Source of the DNA: Hydra vulgaris
Taxonomy: Eukaryota > Cnidaria > Hydrozoa > Anthoathecata > Hydridae
Reading direction: 5' to 3'
NCBI RefSeq assembly: GCF_038396675.1
Contig: NC_088920.1
Span: 64,859,001-64,923,000 of the forward strand
DNA: 64,000 nucleotides
The notes under the pieces were generated by a model. That model was given only the letters and a program-made list of their open reading frames with translations. It did no database searches and was not told the DNA's origin. Below, one piece after another: positions 2,169 through 41,636 of the stretch. Numbering within the stretch: position 1 is the first letter of the stretch; every line of letters begins with the position of its first letter. A program made the translations under genes and the position numbers.

Positions 2169-2704
2169 TTGTTTTCATTGAATTTGTTTACTTTATAGTC
2201 AAATTATATTAACAATGCTGTATTATATACTTTATTATAACAAAATAGAACCCATAGTTTTTCTAGGCTCCAGGTTTCCATATATTTCCATAAATAAATG
2301 AAAAACATCTTAAGTTTTTTTTTTTAATCATGTCTGTATTAATAAGTTTAAAAAGAATTTTGGTTGAAAATTTCTTATTAGTTCTTTCTCTACATTTTGT
2401 ACTTTTGGTGAACTTTTGTTTGGTTTTTTAGTTTAAAATGCAATTATAATTGATTCTTTAGTTTAAAATACAAGAATGATTGGTTCTTTAGTTAAAAATA
2501 CAATCAATCAAATATGATGAAGATTCTTCATTTATTCCATAATTCACAATAATCACAACATTTATAAAGATTTTTTTCCTACTGAAGCACACTTCATTTA
2601 CTAGCATAAATATCAGTACATTAGACAAGAAAAAAATTAGCTGCTTTTGAGTTGACAACATTTTAAGATTGTATTATTGATAAGCATAGAAGTTCTTAAA
2701 TCTA
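2155..2704. other. A+T-rich spacer
   Basis: No gene recognised. Positions 2425-2510 contain a threefold short repetition of 'gattctttagtttaaaatacaa' type units. Confidence 0.4.
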
Positions 2705-3575
2705 TTTACTCTTTTTACTGACGACATAGCTATAGTCTTGGCAAAATGTCATCACTTTTTAGAACAGACAGCCAATTTAATGAATGGTGACATTCTTACT
2801 GAGTTTGAAACTTTAAGTCTTCTTGGATTATTCTTTAATAATGACCTCTCATAGAAACCATATATGTTATCTATTGCAAACTTAGCCCCTGCTTCTCTAT
2901 CGTACTTGTTGTTTTCTTAATCCTGATTCCATTTTCTATCTCTATAAGTCTCTTATTTATATTTGTATGACTTTTCGTCATATTTAAGCTGGTTTTTTTT
3001 TGTCATATTTAAGCTAGGTACTCTTAGACAAGGGCCAAAACGCATTGTAAATATTGTTAGACGTGTTCTAGCTGTTAAGCTTGTGACTCTAACAACACGT
3101 GGCTCTAACAACACGTGACTCTAATCTTAATCTTTTTTTCTTCAAATAATAAATTATTTTACTTTAAATATTATTATTTATATATTAATATTAAATATTA
3201 TGTTTGCTGCTGAAGCAATCTATCATTACTTCTTTCATCAAACAAAACTAAATCTTACGTGACTTGTCATTCAGTTAAGTTACATCCTTTTACTGTAACT
3301 TCCTTCATGTTCATAAAGCTTTTATTCATTAAGTTTTTTTTCTTCGAACATCGGTGCTTTGGAGTTCTGTCTCGTCTTCATGTTTTTTGACTTAATTTAC
3401 ACTTTTTTTAAGTCTTCTGTCAACCACATTCATTCTTTAATTCTTATTGCTGCTTTTTGTTAGTTCTATTTTTTTTAAATCTATGTAATTTTTGTTAAGT
3501 CTATGTAATTTTTATTAACCTATATAAATAGTGCTTGCTTGCAGCTTTGTTGGAAATGAATTTATTGAAAAGTGA
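2705..3575 (+). mobile_element. CR1-like LINE, copy D (3' part, heavily decayed)
   Basis: Plus-strand translation with many stops matches the other copies in order: FTDDIAIV (RT active-site region, first Asp region altered), NGDILTEFETLSLLGL, a PKRIVNIVRRVL-like block, then RHSVKLHPFTV, which corresponds to RHLIKSHPFTV in copy E. The 3' tail 'gtgcttgcttgcagctttg' near 3531 recurs near 16535 and, inverted, near 12785. Most of the RT and everything upstream are absent. Confidence 0.75.
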
Positions 3576-5755: not shown

Positions 5756-7448
5756 AATAAAATAAAATTTAATTGGTTTGATGTTGAAGACAAATCATTT
5801 ATGCATAGTAAAAAAAGTAAAGGTCCAAGTATAGAACCCTGTGGGACTCCGCAGTTTATAGTTTTTTTGGTCGTTTCTAAATTTTCAAATTGTACATATA
5901 GTTTTCTGTTTGAAAGGTAATTTTCAAACCAGAGTAAGTTTGTCTCCTTTATTCCTTAATATTCCAGTTTTTTTATTAGAATGGAATGATTCACCGTATC
6001 AAAAGCTTTCGACAGATCAATGAAAACTCCTAACGTAAAACAGTCTTCTGTAAAAGCATAAGATAAGTGATTAACTAACTCTACTATTGCGTGATCTGTT
6101 GAATGTTGTTTTTTGAAACCAAATTGCTTACTGTATAACATGTTGTTTTCAGTTAAATGATTATACAGCCTATTGTACACTATACGTTCAAGCAATTTCG
6201 AGAAACAAGATAAAACAGATAAAGGCCTGTAATTAGAAGGTTCTGACTCATCTCCAGACTTGATACTGGAGTTACTCTAGCAATTTTTAAATTATCCGGA
6301 ACTTTACCTGATTTAAGTAACTGATTGAAGATATGAAACAAAGATGGTTCAATTATATCATAGACTAATTTTAATATATTAACGCTAACTTTATCCGATC
6401 CTGCACTTTTGTTACTTTTTAAGCTTATTAACGCAGTCCGCAACTTACGTATATCTAGCTTTAACTCATTCATTTTTTTATTAGAATTTCTTAGATAAGA
6501 ATCAAATGTTGAAGAAGTTAAAGGAATACTTTGTGCTAAATTAGAGCTAACATTAATGAAGAAACTGTTAAATTCTTTACCTATTAGTGTTTTATCATAA
6601 ATTAATTCACCGTCAATTAAAAGTTTTTTTGGCAGAGCGTTATTTTTATATTTGTTTTGTATAATTATTATTTTAATAGCATTCCAAGTTTGTTAAGTAT
6701 TTCCATTTGCATTTTCTAGCAATTTCGAATAATATAATTTTTTAGAGTATTTTTTGATTTTTTCAAAAATATTTTTATAGTTTTTATATTTTGCTTCGTT
6801 TGAATATGTTTTTTTTTAAGAAATTTTTCATAAAGTTTCTGTTTTTTCTTGACGATTTTAGTAAGCCTTTTGTTATCCAAGGCGATAGAAGTGATTTTGA
6901 ATTTATATAAAACTTTTTTACAGGAAACGCTTTATTGTATTGTTTACATTTATTGAATTGTTATAGCATCACGTGATTTGAGAACAAGCTCTCAGTTAAC
7001 GAAGTTAATTAGAAGGTTGCGAAATTGTTGTATGGAGTTTTCATTGATCTGTCGCTTGTAAGTAATGTGCTTTGTGGAAATATTATCAGGGGTTATGCTT
7101 TTTGTTATAAGAAATGTGGGAAAATGGTCTGTCATATCAGTCTTTATTATACCTGTACCAAAGCAGCTATTAGAAAAATTATTAGTAATTATGTTATCTA
7201 GTAGGGTAGAGGAACTTTTTGCGATTCTTGTTGGCTTAGTTATTGTTGGAATGAGGTTATTTTGTGAAAGAGTATTTACAATATATTTAACACTGTTATT
7301 TGACGCATGATTCAAAAGATTAATATTCAGGTCACTGACAAAGTAAACATGCTTTTGTTTTTTATTAACTTTTGTTAAAAAAGTACGCGAAGAAACTTTA
7401 AAATTTTTTAAATTACCCGCTGGTTCTCTATAAATAACATTAACAATC
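5756..7448 (-). mobile_element. Second LINE type: endonuclease and RT remnants
   Basis: Minus-strand non-LTR element distinct from the CR1-like family. From high to low coordinates there is an APE endonuclease C-terminal part (VNVIYREP, SDLNINLLNH, STLLDNIITN, DHFPTFL; about 7450-6992). A decayed linker follows, then RT fingers (KSNKSAGSDKV about 6415, LLKSGKVPDNLKIARVTPV about 6300). Next comes a palm block (QFGFKKQHSTDHAI, FIDLSKAFDTVNH; 6195-5956) and INCGVPQGSILGP near 5850. The catalytic FADD box is missing because the element is cut off just after INDLS. Frameshifts occur near 6270 and 6190. The 5' side is interrupted by the hAT terminus at 7449. Confidence 0.85.
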
Positions 7449-8660
7449 AGGGCCCGATTAAGCCTTTTTAGTGCCAAAGGCACAAACCCACATCGGTGCC
7501 CTCCTTCGGGCCCAAAAAACAAGCATTAAAGCAAATTCTAATTCTTGCATCTTCTTTGCAATATTTTCTGCTTCTCTTCTGGTGTCTCCTTTTTGTGACT
7601 AATCTTCTTGTATACTTTCTAATGCTTTTAAAATCTGAGGATGAGACTTTAGGATAGCTTCAGTTGCAACAGCATGTGCATCCCATCTGGTATCATTCAC
7701 AAGGCATCCTTTCAGAATCTTCCATCTGTTGGTTGAAGCTGAGAAAAAAGTATAGATCAGTTGCACTGTATGGAAGAAGTTTACTGCCTCTAAACAGGAG
7801 TCAACGGCACTTCTGCCGACAAGATTTAGTGAATGGGCAGCACAGGGTATGTATATAGTACTGCAGCACTTGCTTAGCCATACCTTCACCAGTGTGATTT
7901 TGCAACTCCAAGAAAGTCAAAAAGCGTTCAATGGGCTATCCATCTGCTACATATCGAAGAACAACGCTTAACTGATCTATATGTGAAATATCGGGTGTTG
8001 AGTCTACTGACAAGCTGAAATAATCGGAAGCCTTTACTTCATCTACAATTACTTCACGGATTTTTTTGGACATAATTTCAATCAGTTCTTCACATATAGT
8101 TTTGGATAAATAAGAAGGATTTCCCGTTCCAGAATTTCCATATTTCGCTATGTGTGATGCTAAAAATGGATCAAACTGACTGACCAACTCTAGCAGCCCT
8201 AAATAATTTCCATTTTGTAAAGTTCCAAATTTTTCATTTGTTCCTCTGAAAGCCAGACCTCGGCTATAGTGCAAATAACCGCTATTGCTCGCCTCAAAAC
8301 ATGTTCCCAGTAACTATACTCTTCATTTATTTGCTTTTCTAGTTTTTGTAGTACACCGGAGTCTTGTCGACGAGTTAGGTATACTAACATGCAGTTTTTA
8401 TGAGTAGCGCTTTGTTCGTGATTATCAACATAAATGTTATTTTTCCAGTCACTTAACCCATTTTTATCAGCAAAATTTGTGGAACCTGTAGATGCAAAAA
8501 GTTTACAAACAAAGCAGTACACAGATCCCGTGAATGATGAATACAATAACCACTCTCTCTTGTACTGCTCACCATTCGCTTTTGTGTCATAGAAAAGTTT
8601 TTACCCATTTTTTTTACTACCCATTATCACTTACTTTGCTTCTTCACTCATAAATTGTTA
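7449..8660 (-). mobile_element. hAT transposon relic (ZMYM1/TTF-type, DUF4371-like)
   Basis: Minus-strand hAT-superfamily transposase in pieces. There is a TTF-type zinc-finger N-terminus (VYCFVCKLF, H-E-x-S-A-T-H; 8546-8199) and the RNase H-fold start FSLSVDSTPDISHIDQLSVVLRYV (8274-7936). A later block has IPCAAHSLNLVG and VNDTRWDAHA (7889-7599). The DNA-glycine block between the second and third parts and the whole C-terminal dimerisation domain are missing. One end is marked by CAGGGCCCGATTAAGCC at 7449, a typical hAT-like terminus that interrupts the neighbouring LINE. I could not identify the opposite terminus or a target duplication. Confidence 0.8.
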
Positions 8661-24790: not shown

Positions 24791-25073
24791 TTTAGCTCTT
24801 TAAGTAAATTCTAATATATATATTGAATGTATAATATATATATGAATGTATGTATATATTTTTTTTGAAATATAGTGTATTTTTAATAAACTAAATAATT
24901 AGCTGCGACTTTTTGCAACTTTTTGCAAGAAATTTCTATTTGAAGTTTCCGCTACCTGGATTATAGCCAAGTGATAGTTTATCAAAAGTTTACATTAGAA
25001 TTTGTATTTTATTCAAAAGTCAATTGAAAATGATGGTTTACTATTGGTAATTGACATTTAATTAGATAATTAT

Positions 25074-25380
25074 TTGCAATCCTATCTAACTAAATTTTTA
25101 TTCAATGAAAAATCATTACTTAAAGGCCGAAAAAAAGTATATAATCAAAAAGATTTTTCTTTGTTCAATGTGTTTACACATGTCATTAAAAATCATAATG
25201 GTTTACATCATATGTTTGTTCAGCTGACATGTGACAACGATAAAATGACAGCTGAAGAAGCAGTTGCAATAATTATTGACGTAGATCTTAGCGTATCTGG
25301 CTATAAAAGAATACAACAAGCATCTAAAATAAAAATTTTATTCAACAGTTGAAAAAGCATTTACTTTGTGTGGTCCACAA
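25074..25380 (+). pseudogene. Possible N-terminal piece of the RAG1/Transib-like transposase
   Basis: An open stretch of 92 codons ends with MTAEEAVAIIIDVDLSVSGYKRIQQAS. The better copy downstream has SADEALALITDASL at the equivalent place (about 26729-26770). The same strand and the proximity suggest a second, older copy. The first 60 codons show no motif I recognise. Confidence 0.4.
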
Positions 25381-26339
25381 AATATTCACTAAGAAGTCAC
25401 TGATCAAAAAGTCAAAGAAGATATTTACAAGCACTTATAAATCACATCGCTTCGCAGTGGGCTAGTAGGTGGACAAAATAGGAAATATTTTAGTTGTCTA
25501 ATCTTAAAAACTTATTTAATTTTAGTATCTACGTATATTAGGAGAAATTTATTGATAATTTATTTATATTAAATTCCTTAGTTACCAGGACTCTAAGCAT
25601 TTGAATATTGCAAATAAAAAAAAATTTATTATAAAAAATTATAAATAAGTAATTTACGGTGACGTCAACGCTGTGCTATATTTTTCAATTACATCTACGT
25701 TTTTAAAACAAAAAATTAGTACATGTTATTCTAGAGTATTTAGAGATAAGAAAAACCAGTTTGAAATGAATTTGTCATAGCATGTTAACTTAGTTATATT
25801 TTGAAAATCACAGATTAAAAAAAAATTCTTTAAGAAATTTATTTTATGCCGCACTATAACTAATAATTTGCCATGTGGTGTCTTATATTTATTTGAGCTA
25901 TATGATGCTTCAACCAAGTTTTAATTGGTTGCTCGTCCCTTTAAATCCCCGTTTAGATTTTATATATGTTTTAATTTGGTTGGTATGGTATTAAATTTTG
26001 CATAGCAACAACTCATTTTTACATTAACGTTGTTTTAACAGTATTTTATTTGCGCTAAGCACACAATATTTGGGGTATGTATTAAAATGAGGTTCACGAC
26101 TTAAAAAGTTAATTTTTTTGGTTGCTATGGCTACCTTTCTTTGCATAGCAACAACAAATTTTCGGTAACTGTTAGTAATTTATTTACTAACACTAACATT
26201 AAATTAATTACTTTTAATTTTAATTATTAACACTTGTAGTAACCTAATTACTAATAAGAATTAGCAAACCGTGCGGCATATATAATATAACATTAAACTT
26301 TTAAATACAAAATATTTTTTATAAGAATTATTTAGATAA
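25381..26339. other. A+T-rich spacer between transposase relics
   Basis: No gene supported. The phrase 'gttgctatggctacctttctttgcatagcaacaac' near 26120-26156 contains a small inverted repeat (gttgctatg/catagcaac) and recurs in part near 25998. Confidence 0.35.
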
Positions 26340-28030
26340 GGTTTATTAAACTATGCTGAATTTAAAGACGTTGATTTAAGACATGCTGTTCAACGATTTG
26401 TTTACTTGTATAAAAAAAAGTGGAAATCTGCAAACTATACTGTTAAATTTTTTGAAAAGAAGTTTGTGAATTGGCTTAATGAATATTTAATTAACAGAAA
26501 AAACAAAACAATAAACCAACTGCAGGTAGACGTGGTCGAAAACCAGTTGCATTTGATAATAGTTTTAATAAAACTAAAAAACGGCGTGTATCTTGCTTAA
26601 TTGAATCTCATTCATCCAATGAATTATTTTTTGCTGCTAATAAAAAATTTAGAAATGAATCTATTGTTATTGCTACCAAGAACGTTTTAAATATTTCAAA
26701 TACAGATAAAGCAACTAAATATTCAGCAGACGAAGCACTGGCTTTAATAACTGATGCCAGTCTGACAAAAGTTTCCTAACAATTAAAAGCGGAGCCTTGG
26801 AGAAATAATATAACATCTACCCCGCTTACAATGATAACAGAAATGTAAAACTGAAATGTTATCCTGCAAATATAACAGTGGAGGACTATTCAGCTTCAGT
26901 TCCTTTAAAAGATTTAATGATTCATACTTTGCAAAGAATCTGTGCAATTCAGGAAACTGAGCTGAAGCACTTGATATTGAACGACAAAGCAATGTTTTTG
27001 ATGGTGCTACTGGCCAAAGCATTTATAAACAAGTTTTGTCAGAACCTGACATTAACAGAGGTTTGAAGTATGAAGAATTATTATTTATTACTTGTCTAGT
27101 CCCATTGGATTTGACTGGATTTAACAACAGCAACGAAAAAGTGTCTATATGGAGAAATCAAAAGTCGTCATCCACAGCCTATTGCAGACACATAAGATTT
27201 GCATACAAAACGGAATCCAAGGAATTTGTGATCGAGAAAGATCAGTACATTAAAAGTGAGATAGAAAGCTTGGGTATGATTTTATTAAAGGTTTTCGGAT
27301 CTTCTACTGAAATGAATTGTATTATTGAGCTTAGAATTATTGATGGGAAGGTTCAAACGATATTATCTGAAAAAACTAACTCATACTAATGCTGTTCAGT
27401 GTGTGGTGTCTCTCCAAAAAATATGAATAGTCTTGATATCCTTAATACAGATTATACTAACAGAGAGTTCAAAAAAAGTATTATCAGTCTACACGCATGG
27501 ATTCAATTTTTGAGATGGTTTTACACATTGCATATAAAAAAGAAACACGAAAGTGGCAAGCAAGATCTAAAGAACACAAAGAAAAAGCATCTGTAGCTAA
27601 ACAAAAGATTCAGACTGATTTTATGAACAAAATGGGACTTGTTGTTGATTTCACTAAAAGTAGCAGTTCTGGAACAAGTAATAATGGCAATACTTCAAGG
27701 CGTGCTTTTGCACCATATGAACAAACAACTGAAATTTTGGGTATTGATCAAAATCTTATATTCAGATTTTACATTATCTTGCTAACACTCTCTTCAAGAT
27801 ATGAAATTGACAGCTTAAAATTCAAGGCTTATTGTTTTGACACTGTTAGATTATATGTGTCCCTTTATCTATGGTATTACATTGCTCAATCAGTTCACAA
27901 AGTATTAATACATGTATATGACATAATTAAAAGCCATACATTACCCATTGGACTTATGTTAGAGGAAGCTCAAGAGGCTAGAAATAAAGACTTCAAATCT
28001 TATTGCGAAAATTTCAGCAAAAAGAAATAA
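26340..28030 (+). pseudogene. RAG1-core/Transib-like transposase, frameshifted relic
   Basis: Nearly full-length plus-strand transposase spread over several frames. In order: an N-terminal helical part (about 26340-26520), GRRGRKPVAF and TKKRRVSCLIESH (26527-26600), SADEALALITDASL (26729), YPAYNDNRNVKLKCYP (26815-26865), then NVFDGATGQSIYKQVL (26991-27040). WRNQKSSSTAYCRHIRFAYK and CSVCGVSPKNM (27390-27425) follow, then SLHAWIQF and HIAYKKETRKWQAR (27485-27565), GTSNNGNTSRR (27671) and VHKVLIHVYDII with LEEAQEARNKDF (27890-28000). By comparison with RAG1 as I know it, the Asp of VFDG (codon 27000-27002) aligns with the first catalytic Asp, the Glu in LEEAQEARNKD with the catalytic Glu, and CxxC with its zinc ligands. 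The second Asp site appears as Trp in LHAW. Frameshifts near 26520, 26775, 26960, 27390 and 27510 mean it cannot be active. Confidence 0.6.
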
Positions 28031-28276
28031 TTTACTAGTTGGATATCAGTGACAAACTAAGTAAAAATATGTTGCTATTAAACAGTTGGAGCATGGGTAG
28101 ATCTACTAAACAAAGCTTTGTAAAGTATGGCGTTTTTTGGTTCTGTTGACACTCAAGATTCAAGCATGTTTGCAATTGTAACAACACTTTCAAGACTTAG
28201 TGTGTCAAACTCACAAACTGACTTTTTATGCACTAAATTGTTTTTTTTTTTGTTTTTTATTTTTATTTAACATTTT
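28031..28276. other. Spacer between transposase relics
   Basis: Short non-coding stretch holding no motif that I recognise. It ends in the A-rich tail (T-rich on plus, 28242-28275) of the adjacent SINE. Confidence 0.35.
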
Positions 28277-28449
28277 TAGGTGCCCCAAGAAGTCCTAACG
28301 GTCTTGTCACAGAGCAAAGCGGAAGTGCATTTAACCGGGAAGTACACGCCTCCTTCTTTACCGTGACGCGAAAATTTGTTCAGAGCTCGTTTCGAACCTG
28401 GATTTCCTGCTTATAAAGCAAGCGCTCTAACCACTGCGCCACGGCCGCA
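28277..28449 (-). mobile_element. tRNA-derived SINE, family 1 (best copy)
   Basis: On the minus strand it opens GCGGCCGTGGCGCAGTGGTT, with A box TGGCGCAGTGG (complement of 28431-28441) and B box GGTTCGAAAC (complement of 28389-28398) at normal tRNA spacing. The anticodon-arm region is GCTTTATAAGC. A body shared with 5232-5413 and 47880-47998 follows (GGTTAAATGCACTTCCGC, CCGTTAGGACTTCTTGGGG), then an A-rich tail. This copy separates two RAG1-like fragments. Confidence 0.85.
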
Positions 28450-28489
28450 AACTATACTGCAAAACAGTTTATTGTTGATATTTAGATTT

Positions 28490-28720
28490 ATATGATTGGT
28501 AAAAAATGCCGTCAACAGTTCACATAGTTTTTGCTCATGGAGCAGAAATAATGATAAACTCACCAGTTCCCTTGGGAGTTTTAGCCGAAGAAGCATTTGA
28601 ATGCCGAAACAATACAGACGGCATCGCAAACTAAATGCTTGTAAATTTTTGAGACAAGCAAATTTTAAAGACATCTTTAACCGTTTAATCCTTCGATTCT
28701 CTTATTAGTTCTATTTCCTT
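28490..28720 (+). pseudogene. Second, divergent RAG1/Transib-like C-terminal block
   Basis: The plus strand reads MPSTVHIVFAHGAEI then PVPLGVLAEEAFECRNN (28507-28604). After a frameshift it reads QYRRHRKLNACKFLRQANFK and DIFNRLILRFSY before a stop near 28711. This corresponds to the catalytic-Glu block and the following basic region of the transposase at 26340-28030. It is clearly diverged from it and lies outside it, so it belongs to another copy. The Glu context (AEEAFECRNN) is retained. Confidence 0.55.
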
Positions 28721-29483
28721 GGAATCTAGAGGACGAAGAAAGTTGTACTCAAGCTTCCAAAAAAAGTAAAATGTTCTTTAATTTTAGAAGTGGACAAATA
28801 GGAATCAATAAAACTGTCAGAACTAGAACCATCAGACTTAAAATCATTGGAACCAACAGAAGTTATTAATTCAGAAGATGAAATAATGAGCGATTTAAAA
28901 GCTACTAATGAAAATTACTTGGAAGATGAAAACATTTGCGTGAGAAATAAATGTATCAATATTAAAAGTGAAAAATTTTGAAAAATTATTACTTTAGAAA
29001 AATTTTTTTAAAAGTAAGTTTTTGCGTTTCTAATGCAATTTCAAAAGATATTTTTAAATAATTTCTATTCTTTTTAAAAATTAAAACAAGCTTGTAATCT
29101 TTTATAGAAATACTAGTGTCGTCTTTAGTATTGCTAACTAGGTTTGTGAGGGCAATGGATAATTTTTACAAGTAACCTGCTCCGTCGAAACAATATAATT
29201 TCAGTATATAGAATCTGGAAACGGAATTTACTCAAAATTTTTAATTTAAACTTAGCGCGTTTTGGGTATTGTGGTTTATCCTCGTCCAGCTAATTGCTAT
29301 ATGGAAGCCACATACCCGGGCCAGCGAAAACAAGTTCAACTCATTAAAAACATCATCACTCGCTTCGCTGACCAAAAGTGAGTTTAGGAAGAACAAAGAA
29401 AGTTAGAGCGAAAGTCAGAAAAAGTTGAGTTAGAAAGATAGGATAGAGAAAGCGGAGAGATAATTGTACTAGATGTTAGAATG
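28721..29483. other. Spacer downstream of transposase relics
   Basis: Acidic open segments near 28790-28960 (LKSLEPTEVINSEDEIMSDL) could be the tail of the divergent transposase copy, but there is no motif. The remainder is A+T-rich without features. Confidence 0.35.
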
Positions 29484-29688
29484 CAGGGCCGTAAGAACAA
29501 AAATTATATTGGGGGGTGGGGGCGGTACTACCCCAAAATAGTTTTAAGGATCTTTTTTTTTAAGTCATTTTTCAGTCAATTTCTTCAAAATTATATGTTT
29601 GAAAAATTATTGGGGAGGGGGGGGCAAATGCCCCCCTCCCCAATAATTTTAAGGGGCTCCCCCCCTCCCCCAGTTGCTACGGGCCTTG
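29484..29688. mobile_element. Miniature element with CAGGGCCGTA ends (copy 1)
   Basis: Begins CAGGGCCGTAAGAAC and ends GTTGCTACGGGCCTTG, giving hAT-like terminal inverted repeats. The interior has a strong G-rich foldback (TTGGGGAGGGGGGGG...CCCCCCTCCCCAA at about 29609-29644). A second copy in inverse orientation lies at 33708-33896. Confidence 0.75.
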
Positions 29689-38750: not shown

Positions 38751-38964
38751 CGCCGCACAGTGGGGCAGAATTGCTTCAAAACATTGCAAAACGTCTGAAA
38801 TACATTAAAATGTCTGACAATTGTAAATAAATGCTTAAAAATCTATGGATTAATTTTTCTTAAGTCTAACAAGTGCCCTTAAAATAATTATTTAACTAAA
38901 AAATTCAAAACAAAAAAAAATTAATTTTGTCCAGTTTTAAAGCTATTCTGGCCCACTGTGCGGT
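38751..38964. mobile_element. 214-bp miniature element with GCACAGTGGG ends
   Basis: Left CGCCGCACAGTGGGGCAGAA and right (complement) CACCGCACAGTGGGCCAGAA, both followed by TTGCTTCAAAAC/TAGCTTTAAAAC, form inverted repeats of about 30 bp. The interior is the repeat seen at 36405 and 37797, in the opposite direction. Non-coding. Confidence 0.75.
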
Positions 38965-39683: not shown

Positions 39684-41636
39684 AAGACAAAAAGCACTTG
39701 CTTCCGTGTCGTGTATGTGGCGATAAATCATCAGGAAGGCATTATGGTGTTTTTACATGTGATGGATGTCGTGGGTTTTTTAAACGTGCAGTTCGCAGAA
39801 ACCTCTTGTTTCTATGTAAAGAGAACGGCAACTGCCAAGTAGATGTTGCACGCCGCAATCAATGTCAGGCATGTCGTTTGAGGAAATGTTATGATGTACA
39901 TATGAATCGAGACGGTCAGTTACTATCTTTTATTTTATTGTTAGTCAAAACAAAAATTTGCTAATGTTGTCCAGCGCATGACATCTAAGCTCTAAGCTGG
40001 ATAACATTAGTTTAAAAAAAGTTAAAAATGAGGACCGAGTATAAACTATTTTAAGTAAAAAAATTGAAAAATTTTTGTTCAACTTTTTTAGCTGTTCAGC
40101 ACGAAAGGTCACCTCGCCTCAACAACAACAGGACACGCAGCAAACAAAATGATTCCAAACATCGCGCTCCTCAATCAGTTCAAATACCATCTAATATTGA
40201 TGTTAAATATCCGCAAGGTCCGCAAGGTGTCTCCTTTGTGAGTTACGAAGAAGCTTTCATGCCGCAACAAGCTCGAGGTTACGATAGCGAATTTAATCAG
40301 TTTCAACCAAAATCTGAAGATATAAGTTATGCATCAGGAGAAAATTCTAACGACGGCGAAAGCGTTACGATTGCTTCACTTTTAGACGCAACAAATCCTT
40401 TAACACAACAAGTACAAAACAATAACAACAATCCTTGTCCTACTGGCTTTCTTATAGCCGGGGATAAGCTCAATTTAAATGAACACGAAGATATTGAAAA
40501 TAGAGGAACACAAAACATACCTAATAGTTATACCATGTCATCTAAATTCAACTCTGATAAATTATATCATTCTTCTCTTCACTTTCTTTTTATGTCTGTT
40601 AGTTGGGCTCAAAGTATACCAAAGTTTCTTGAATTGCCTTTCTCTGACCAAGCGTTATTGCTTGAAGAGTCTTGGAGTGAACTATTTATTTTATCAATGA
40701 TTCAGTATTCCGAACCTATAGAATTAGGAGTATTGCTTTATTCAATTGGTGCCGAAAATGCTAGTTCCCAAAAAGGTTTAAATGATATACAAGAATTACA
40801 GACTTTACAACAAATTGTGTATAGATTTCAGAACTTAGCAATTGACTGCACAGAGTTTGCGTGTCTCAAGGCTACTGTGCTATTCAAACCTGGTAGGTAG
40901 TGGAGTTGAATTTCTTTTCTGATAAAATATCAGTAAAGGAAATAGTAAATTAATCAACTACAATCAGAAATGTTTATTTTGTTTTAATGCGAAAAAAGTG
41001 TTTTGGGTTTATTTGGGATTGTTTTTTTTTTTTTAGATTTATTAAGAAACTTATAGAAAAACATGGGGTAACATGGGGTAAAAGCCCTTATTTTTTATTC
41101 TTTGACTAAAAACTAGTACATATTTTATTGGTACAGTGAAAACAAATGACGTCATTTAGTGATTAAATAAAGAATAGACTCCACATGGGCTTTCTATCTC
41201 CACGTTCTCCTACATAAGTTATATTTTTCTATTCGGCAGAATAACCAGAGTTATTTTAAAACAAGCAGCAACAAAACTATTTTCCATCAGTCATTAAAAT
41301 ATATAAGTCATTAAAATTAGATAATTTTTAAAAAAAAGATAAGGTAAAGACAGTAATTACATGTAATCTTTTAAAAATATTTGTTTAGATCTTGAAGGGT
41401 TACGTTGCGGTCAGTACATTGAAAACTTGCAAGACTATGCACAAAGCATGTTGGGCGAGTATGTTCGTAACACTCACCCACAAACACCTGCGAGATTTGG
41501 AAAATTGCTACTGCTTCTTCCTTCTTTACGCGCTATAGGTGCAAAAACATTAATAAAACTTTTTTTAAAGGGTGACACAGATCAATCTCCTATAGACAAA
41601 GTGTTACACGATATGAGAAAAACAAGTTTACACTGA
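39684..41636 (+). CDS. NR2E-type nuclear receptor (TLX/PNR/fax-1-like), exons 2-4
   Basis: Three exons with GT/AG borders and matching phases: 39684-39914, 40092-40892 and 41389-41636 (TGA). Introns are 177 and 496 bp. Exon 2 encodes a two-zinc-finger DNA-binding domain: C24/C27/C41/C44 and C60/C66/C76/C79 in the numbering with the candidate first exon. The P-box context is [10 protein letters not shown] and the second finger reads [20 protein letters not shown]. The splice join recreates [12 protein letters not shown], the conserved post-finger box of NR2E receptors. A long asparagine/glutamine-rich hinge follows. The ligand-binding domain carries the helix 3-5 signature [14 protein letters not shown] ... 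[18 protein letters not shown], and the end [15 protein letters not shown] gives a short helix-12 region. As a family, NR2E receptors are nuclear DNA-binding regulators; CDGCRG and the compact second finger look closer to fax-1/PNR than to TLX. Predicted length is 441 aa with exon 1. The ligand, targets and exact subgroup are not readable from sequence. Confidence 0.92.

Follow-up and report, generated by a model that had tools for sequence, protein, structure and literature searches.

The window, a stretch of 64,000 nucleotides of the Hydra vulgaris genome (contig 1, 64859001-64923000, within a searched genome of 911.5 Mb in 15 contigs), contains remains of two families of Transib DNA transposons, designated family A and family B, together with a tRNA-like SINE. 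The features are listed below in window coordinates; L043 and L059 are copies of families A and B, respectively, and "B" denotes positions in family B.

25092..25451, plus strand: left piece of the old, degraded family B element, covering the N-terminal part of the transposase frame, 83.6% identical to L059 (B 391-762)
25448..25452, unstranded: likely left target-site copy CGCTT, where L059 has CGCTG
25453..28028, plus strand: family A Transib relic lying in family B, with left end, leader of about 0.9 kb and broken transposase (blastn, alignment to L043)
25453..25479, plus strand: left terminal repeat of family A, with decayed heptamer, 13-bp spacer and ACAAAAT block
26348..28027, plus strand: family A transposase remains, frame interrupted by indels and stops
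27000..27002, plus strand: first catalytic Asp (VFDG) of the family A relic, opposite HzTransib D126
27342..27344, plus strand: second catalytic Asp (IIDGK) of the family A relic, opposite HzTransib D225
27498..27500, plus strand: Trp of LHAW, opposite Arg in HzTransib, non-catalytic
27974..27976, plus strand: catalytic Glu (EEAQE) of the family A relic, opposite HzTransib E436
28036..28233, plus strand: middle piece of family B, B 802-998 (alignment to L059)
28236..28451, minus strand: tRNA-like SINE with A-rich tail at the low-coordinate end, confirmed as a repeat genome-wide
28452..28983, plus strand: right piece of family B, containing the second Glu block (Glu codon 28599-28601), 84.7% identical to L059 (B 1661-2201)

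The preliminary description of this DNA had reported RAG1-core/Transib-like relics in at least two copies, and this was borne out, as both copies match the transposase of HzTransib from Helicoverpa zea (PDB 6pqn, 6pqr, 6pr5, and others) far above chance. In the family A relic the frame 26961-27389 matches residues 108-219 of HzTransib chain 6pqn_A with E=5.6e-11, and the frame 27461-28030 matches residues 262-436 of the same chain with E=9.1e-43. All the motifs noticed earlier (VFDG, a CxxC pair, KWQAR, NGNTSRR, and HKVLIH...EEAQEARNKD) were found in the window frames. The copy placed at 26340-28030 is indeed a frameshifted transposase, but the element extends further, its left start being at 25453 with a terminal heptamer. 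Pfam gave no match over the cut-off for five window pieces, and its RAG1 family was unreported for the window frames at E values up to 1.

The alignment to L043 showed 87.7% identity over 25455-26352 (leader part) and 91.1% identity over 26348-28023 (coding part), the right 646 bp of the element being absent from the window; besides the stops, the coding part contains four more deletions and one insertion. The left heptamer has one mismatch in comparison with CACAGTG. The left target-site copy is only a likely one because the right copy is lost: the relic has no right end, and the 5-bp duplication is unreadable there. Substitutions relative to L043 amount to 0.075, 0.066, and 0.082 at codon positions 1, 2, and 3, respectively, and to 0.101 outside the frame, and their even spread over codon positions fits neutral decay of the window copy.

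Family A relatives and the catalytic residues

The genome search with the frame 27461-28030 resulted in 5881 candidates, of which 150 were scored, all at E <=1.0e-94. In 45 of the 150 scored rows the frame is open over 660-689 codons and the match is free of stops, a count from which three rows of at least 1,900 codons were left out. These very long open frames (2123, 1912, and 1919 aa) were set aside, and the two of them that were examined are runs of N. According to these data it is of practically negligible probability that the relic represents a dead host gene domesticated from a Transib (a RAG1-like gene), given that the family is multicopy, that the relic carries a transposon end, and that its substitutions are distributed evenly over codon positions; nothing in favour of such a gene was observed here.

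Twenty of the 150 scored copies were fetched with L043 as the reference; the other 19 are 97.6-99.2% identical to it in long stretches, and four copies aligned to it in full differ at 0.7-1.2% of sites. The 670-codon frame of L043 matches nearly the whole solved chain of HzTransib (E=6.7e-104). The family A protein is 43% identical to HzTransib over 457 columns and possesses the D-D-E residues at equivalent positions, while it differs in having roughly 130 extra N-terminal residues by estimate; the window copy differs from HzTransib also in being broken. Both ends of the element were found in 19 of the 20 fetched loci (L049 is without the family right end), with the heptamers CACAGTG...CACTGTG in 18 of these 19 and one mismatch in L053. 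Target-site duplications of 5 bp were identical in 17 of the 19 loci with both ends, no matching duplication being present in L046 and L053; the pattern C-N-N-N-G was observed in 11 of the 17 identical duplications, and one duplication is CGCTG (L041). A look for CACWRTG-type termini and 5-bp duplications, which had been recommended beforehand, revealed CAC...TG ends and duplications in the relatives.

The catalytic triad of HzTransib is characterized as D126, D225, and E436 in the review PMC6941560, and these residues are D109, D208, and E419 of the 6pqn chain, with a constant offset of 17. At the HzTransib positions D-D-E is shared by the window relic and each of the 20 family A loci fetched. 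The second-Asp motif reads MIDGK in 20 of 20 family A loci, IIDGK in the relic, and MIDGE in the copy L002 of family C, which is the second Transib family of the genome (protein 48% identical to that of family A over 552 columns). The residues beside the first Asp vary in L047, L053, and L058, and those beside the Glu in L052, the catalytic residues being kept. In the RAG1 alignments the MIDGE stretch of family C pairs with GTGYDE of RAG1, the Asp of which is probably D708.

The earlier suggestions that the second catalytic Asp had become Trp (LHAW) and that the subfamily may use another catalytic residue were not upheld. A Transib subfamily with an unusual D-W-E triad would agree with the conservation of this Trp: every one of the 20 family A loci has LHAW, and L002, L003, and L004, the three members of family C with frames covering that stretch, have LHCW. 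However, HzTransib, which is an active enzyme of solved structure, carries Arg at the Trp position, and the published D225 falls on MIDGK, whose Asp is kept across family A, in L002, and in the relic. Because the Trp stands opposite an Arg and the true D-D-E residues are present, the idea of an altered triad fails and is considered extremely unlikely, and the proposed collection of intact copies led to the standard D-D-E triad.

Pfam RAG1 was unreported for family A, also when its open protein was searched at E values up to 1; the Transib assignment rests on HzTransib and on L002 of family C, which scored 45.6 bits with Pfam RAG1, and no other Pfam family exceeded its cut-off among the Transib pieces searched. 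L002 matches RAG1 chains with E=1.3e-9 to 1.3e-7 and ProtoRAG with E=0.0069, while its best match by far is HzTransib (1.1e-98). A homologous transposase, D-D-E residues, CAC...TG heptamers, and 5-bp duplications, the latter in relatives, were all found. L043 differs from RAGL/TransibSU in that it contains a single transposase frame: within the ends of this one element the transposase is the sole frame of at least 60 aa and no RAG2-like gene was found, the other listed frame overlapping only the left edge of the element.

Transib/RAG1-like sequences had been said to be known in Hydra, and CMC-Transib of Hydra vulgaris AEP is in fact published, being included, in the available text of PMC12220107, among 14 putatively active element types and among the 3 of these 14 that are outside the top 20% by expression; neither families nor ends of the element are treated in that text. 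As Hydra Transibs are already in print, also as putatively active elements, the window is ordinary and by itself a matter of routine repeat annotation.

Family A nested inside family B

The right piece of family B contains the frame 28506-28631, which matches HzTransib over the Glu block with E=0.0008, in accordance with the second diverged Glu block that had been claimed at 28507-28604 beyond the SINE. In the window family B copy the Glu is kept, the first Asp is changed (it is kept in L059), and the second Asp is missing; both the family A and the family B copies of the window are unable to make a working transposase. The genome search with this Glu block gave 1710 candidates; the 150 that were scored reach down to E=0.0047, and other Transib families are the probable source of the weaker ones.

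The genome search with the frame 25062-25352 gave 147 rows, some of them overlapping. The structure search gave nothing convincing for this frame (best E=0.37), and its position was therefore derived from genome-wide pairing, in which 45 of the top 80 N-terminal places have a same-strand Glu block downstream within 6 kb, with a median gap of 1,074 bp; the window pair, one of the 45, has a gap of 3,157 bp. Pairs in wrong order or on the wrong strand within 6 kb were absent among the 80 N-terminal and 78 Glu-block places. The remaining 35 of the 80 typed N-terminal places were partnerless when partners were sought among the top 78 of the 150 rows only. The piece proposed at 25074-25380 is accordingly an N-terminal part of a transposase, as had been supposed, but of the family B copy and not of the copy at 26340-28030.

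The direct alignment for the nesting uses a single family B copy, L059, which aligns to both flanks of the window family A. The middle piece of family B resumes almost where the left piece stops; in a second alignment to L059 it starts at window 28017 / B 783, and 20-39 bp of family B are lost depending on the alignment. Because L059 aligns on both sides and is nearly continuous across the junction, family A sits inside family B. At the insertion place L059 has CGCTG, which is identical to the duplication of the family A copy L041.

Two independent Transib insertions lying side by side could also account for Glu blocks that are adjacent and diverged, the family B piece and an open family A protein sharing 41% identity over 54 residues. 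Nevertheless, this arrangement is very unlikely, since family B is present on both flanks of family A with L059 nearly continuous over the junction, the gap of the window pair is 3,157 bp where the median is 1,074 bp, and the counterparts of 25092-25451 and 28036-28233 lie 20-39 bp apart in L059. The best explanation of the locus, with a probability of about 95%, is that it holds two dead Transib DNA transposons, family A being nested inside the older family B; the preliminary remark on separate insertions or lineages is consistent with these two diverged families.

The SINE is a common repeat with 1712 candidate places in the genome; 40 of them were scored, among them that of the window, and the other 39 are 90-94% identical. 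About 660 bp of family B are missing where it sits. The promoter boxes of 28236-28451 are presumably those of a tRNA-like SINE, as read by eye; ARAGORN and Rfam (the latter applied to 25000-29500 only) named no tRNA at the SINE.

With respect to the course of events, the family B element would have been present first, as the older insertion, and a family A element, mobilised by a Transib transposase, would have inserted into it, the probable target being a C-N-N-N-G site. The family A copy would have decayed afterwards, losing its right 646 bp together with some 20-39 bp of adjoining family B. The SINE lies further along family B, where about 660 bp are missing; the relative order of the deletion and SINE events is inferred. 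A working family A element is expected to be about 3.36 kb long and to encode one D-D-E transposase of about 660 aa. By analogy with HzTransib, which is described as a cut-and-paste transposase with hairpin intermediates in the available text of PMC6941560, its CACAGTG ends would be cut by nick and hairpin, and insertion would produce a 5-bp duplication.

Unequal spacers at the ends of families A and C

What is novel in the analysis concerns not the window but the ends of family A and family C relatives elsewhere in the genome. The first report of Transib ends was reportedly that of Kapitonov and Jurka in 2005, and the vertebrate V(D)J signals have 12/23 spacers. In 19 of 19 family A loci the spacer between the heptamer and the ACAAAAT block measures 13 bp at the left end and 22 bp at the right end, and the left end of the window relic retains the 13-bp spacer. 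In family C the left heptamer and the CCAAAAT block are separated by 12 bp in L061, L066, and L067, the block being mutated in L068 and the left end not found in L060 or in the first short fetches L062-L065. At the right end of family C the distance from CCAAAAT to the heptamer is 22 bp in L001, L002, L003, and L006, the spacer being shortened in L005 and the heptamer not found by exact pattern in L004, L007, and L008. The 5-bp duplication of family C was identical in two of three cases and agreed in 4 of 5 bases in the third. Families A and C, in other words, each have one nonamer-like block shared by their two ends, with unequal spacers near 12/23. When the inner ends of one copy per family were subjected to mononucleotide shuffles, a shared block of the family A length appeared in 34 of 20,000 shuffles and one of the family C length in 5 of 20,000.

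Beside the family C piece of L008 a frame at 2622-3191 with SCDLK...CTWCD motifs was observed, which by eye resembles another transposon family and had no Pfam match at E 0.01.

Transibs with ends of the 12/23 type are described in the review PMC8355894 for Drosophila melanogaster (Transib5) and Anopheles gambiae (Transib2/N1/N2/N3); these dipteran elements possess a heptamer, a nonamer-like block, and 12/23-like unequal spacers as in Hydra families A and C, from which they differ in exact length, the Hydra spacers being 13/22 in family A and 12/22 in family C. The same review mentions unequal ends also in ProtoRAG of amphioxus (27/31) and in a RAG-like element of an oyster. Within the available text of the literature searched (including PMC4411706, PMC9435367, PMC8355894, PMC7204232, and PMC12220107), no statement was found that pairs a Hydra Transib with unequal spacers.

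From their sequence, the diverged Hydra Transib families A and C may have bipartite ends that are functional and whose unequal spacers (13/22 and 12/22) are RSS-like, a tentative reading that we hold at somewhat less than even odds. If it is true, 12/23-like asymmetric signal pairing would occur in cnidarian RAG1-core transposons without RAG2, and asymmetric pairing would be neither a dipteran oddity nor a vertebrate invention. Family A, with dozens of open frames, near-identical copies, and ends resembling a 12/23 signal pair in a laboratory animal, would make it possible to test directly whether V(D)J signals were asymmetric before RAG2.

Several other elements were noticed in the window. 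A sequence of about 205 bp at 38756-38960 has Transib-like ends, CACAGTGGGGCAG ... CTGGCCCACTGTG, and is probably a non-autonomous Transib; at its right end ACAAAAT is found by eye 23 bp from the heptamer, and its flanking 5-mers, CGCCG and CGGTG, are not identical. LINE-type remains are represented at 397-1299 on the minus strand by an open frame in which Pfam recognises a reverse transcriptase domain (RVT_1, E=3.1e-15), and the minus-strand open frames 6183-6692 and 6995-7525 resemble by eye further remains of this type, Pfam giving nothing for the former and, for the latter, only an endonuclease match below the cut-off (E=0.0094). On the plus strand a 281-codon open frame at 40055-40897 contains the ligand-binding domain of nuclear hormone receptors (Pfam Hormone_recep, E=6.6e-14) and probably belongs to a host nuclear receptor gene, as an exon or a remnant.
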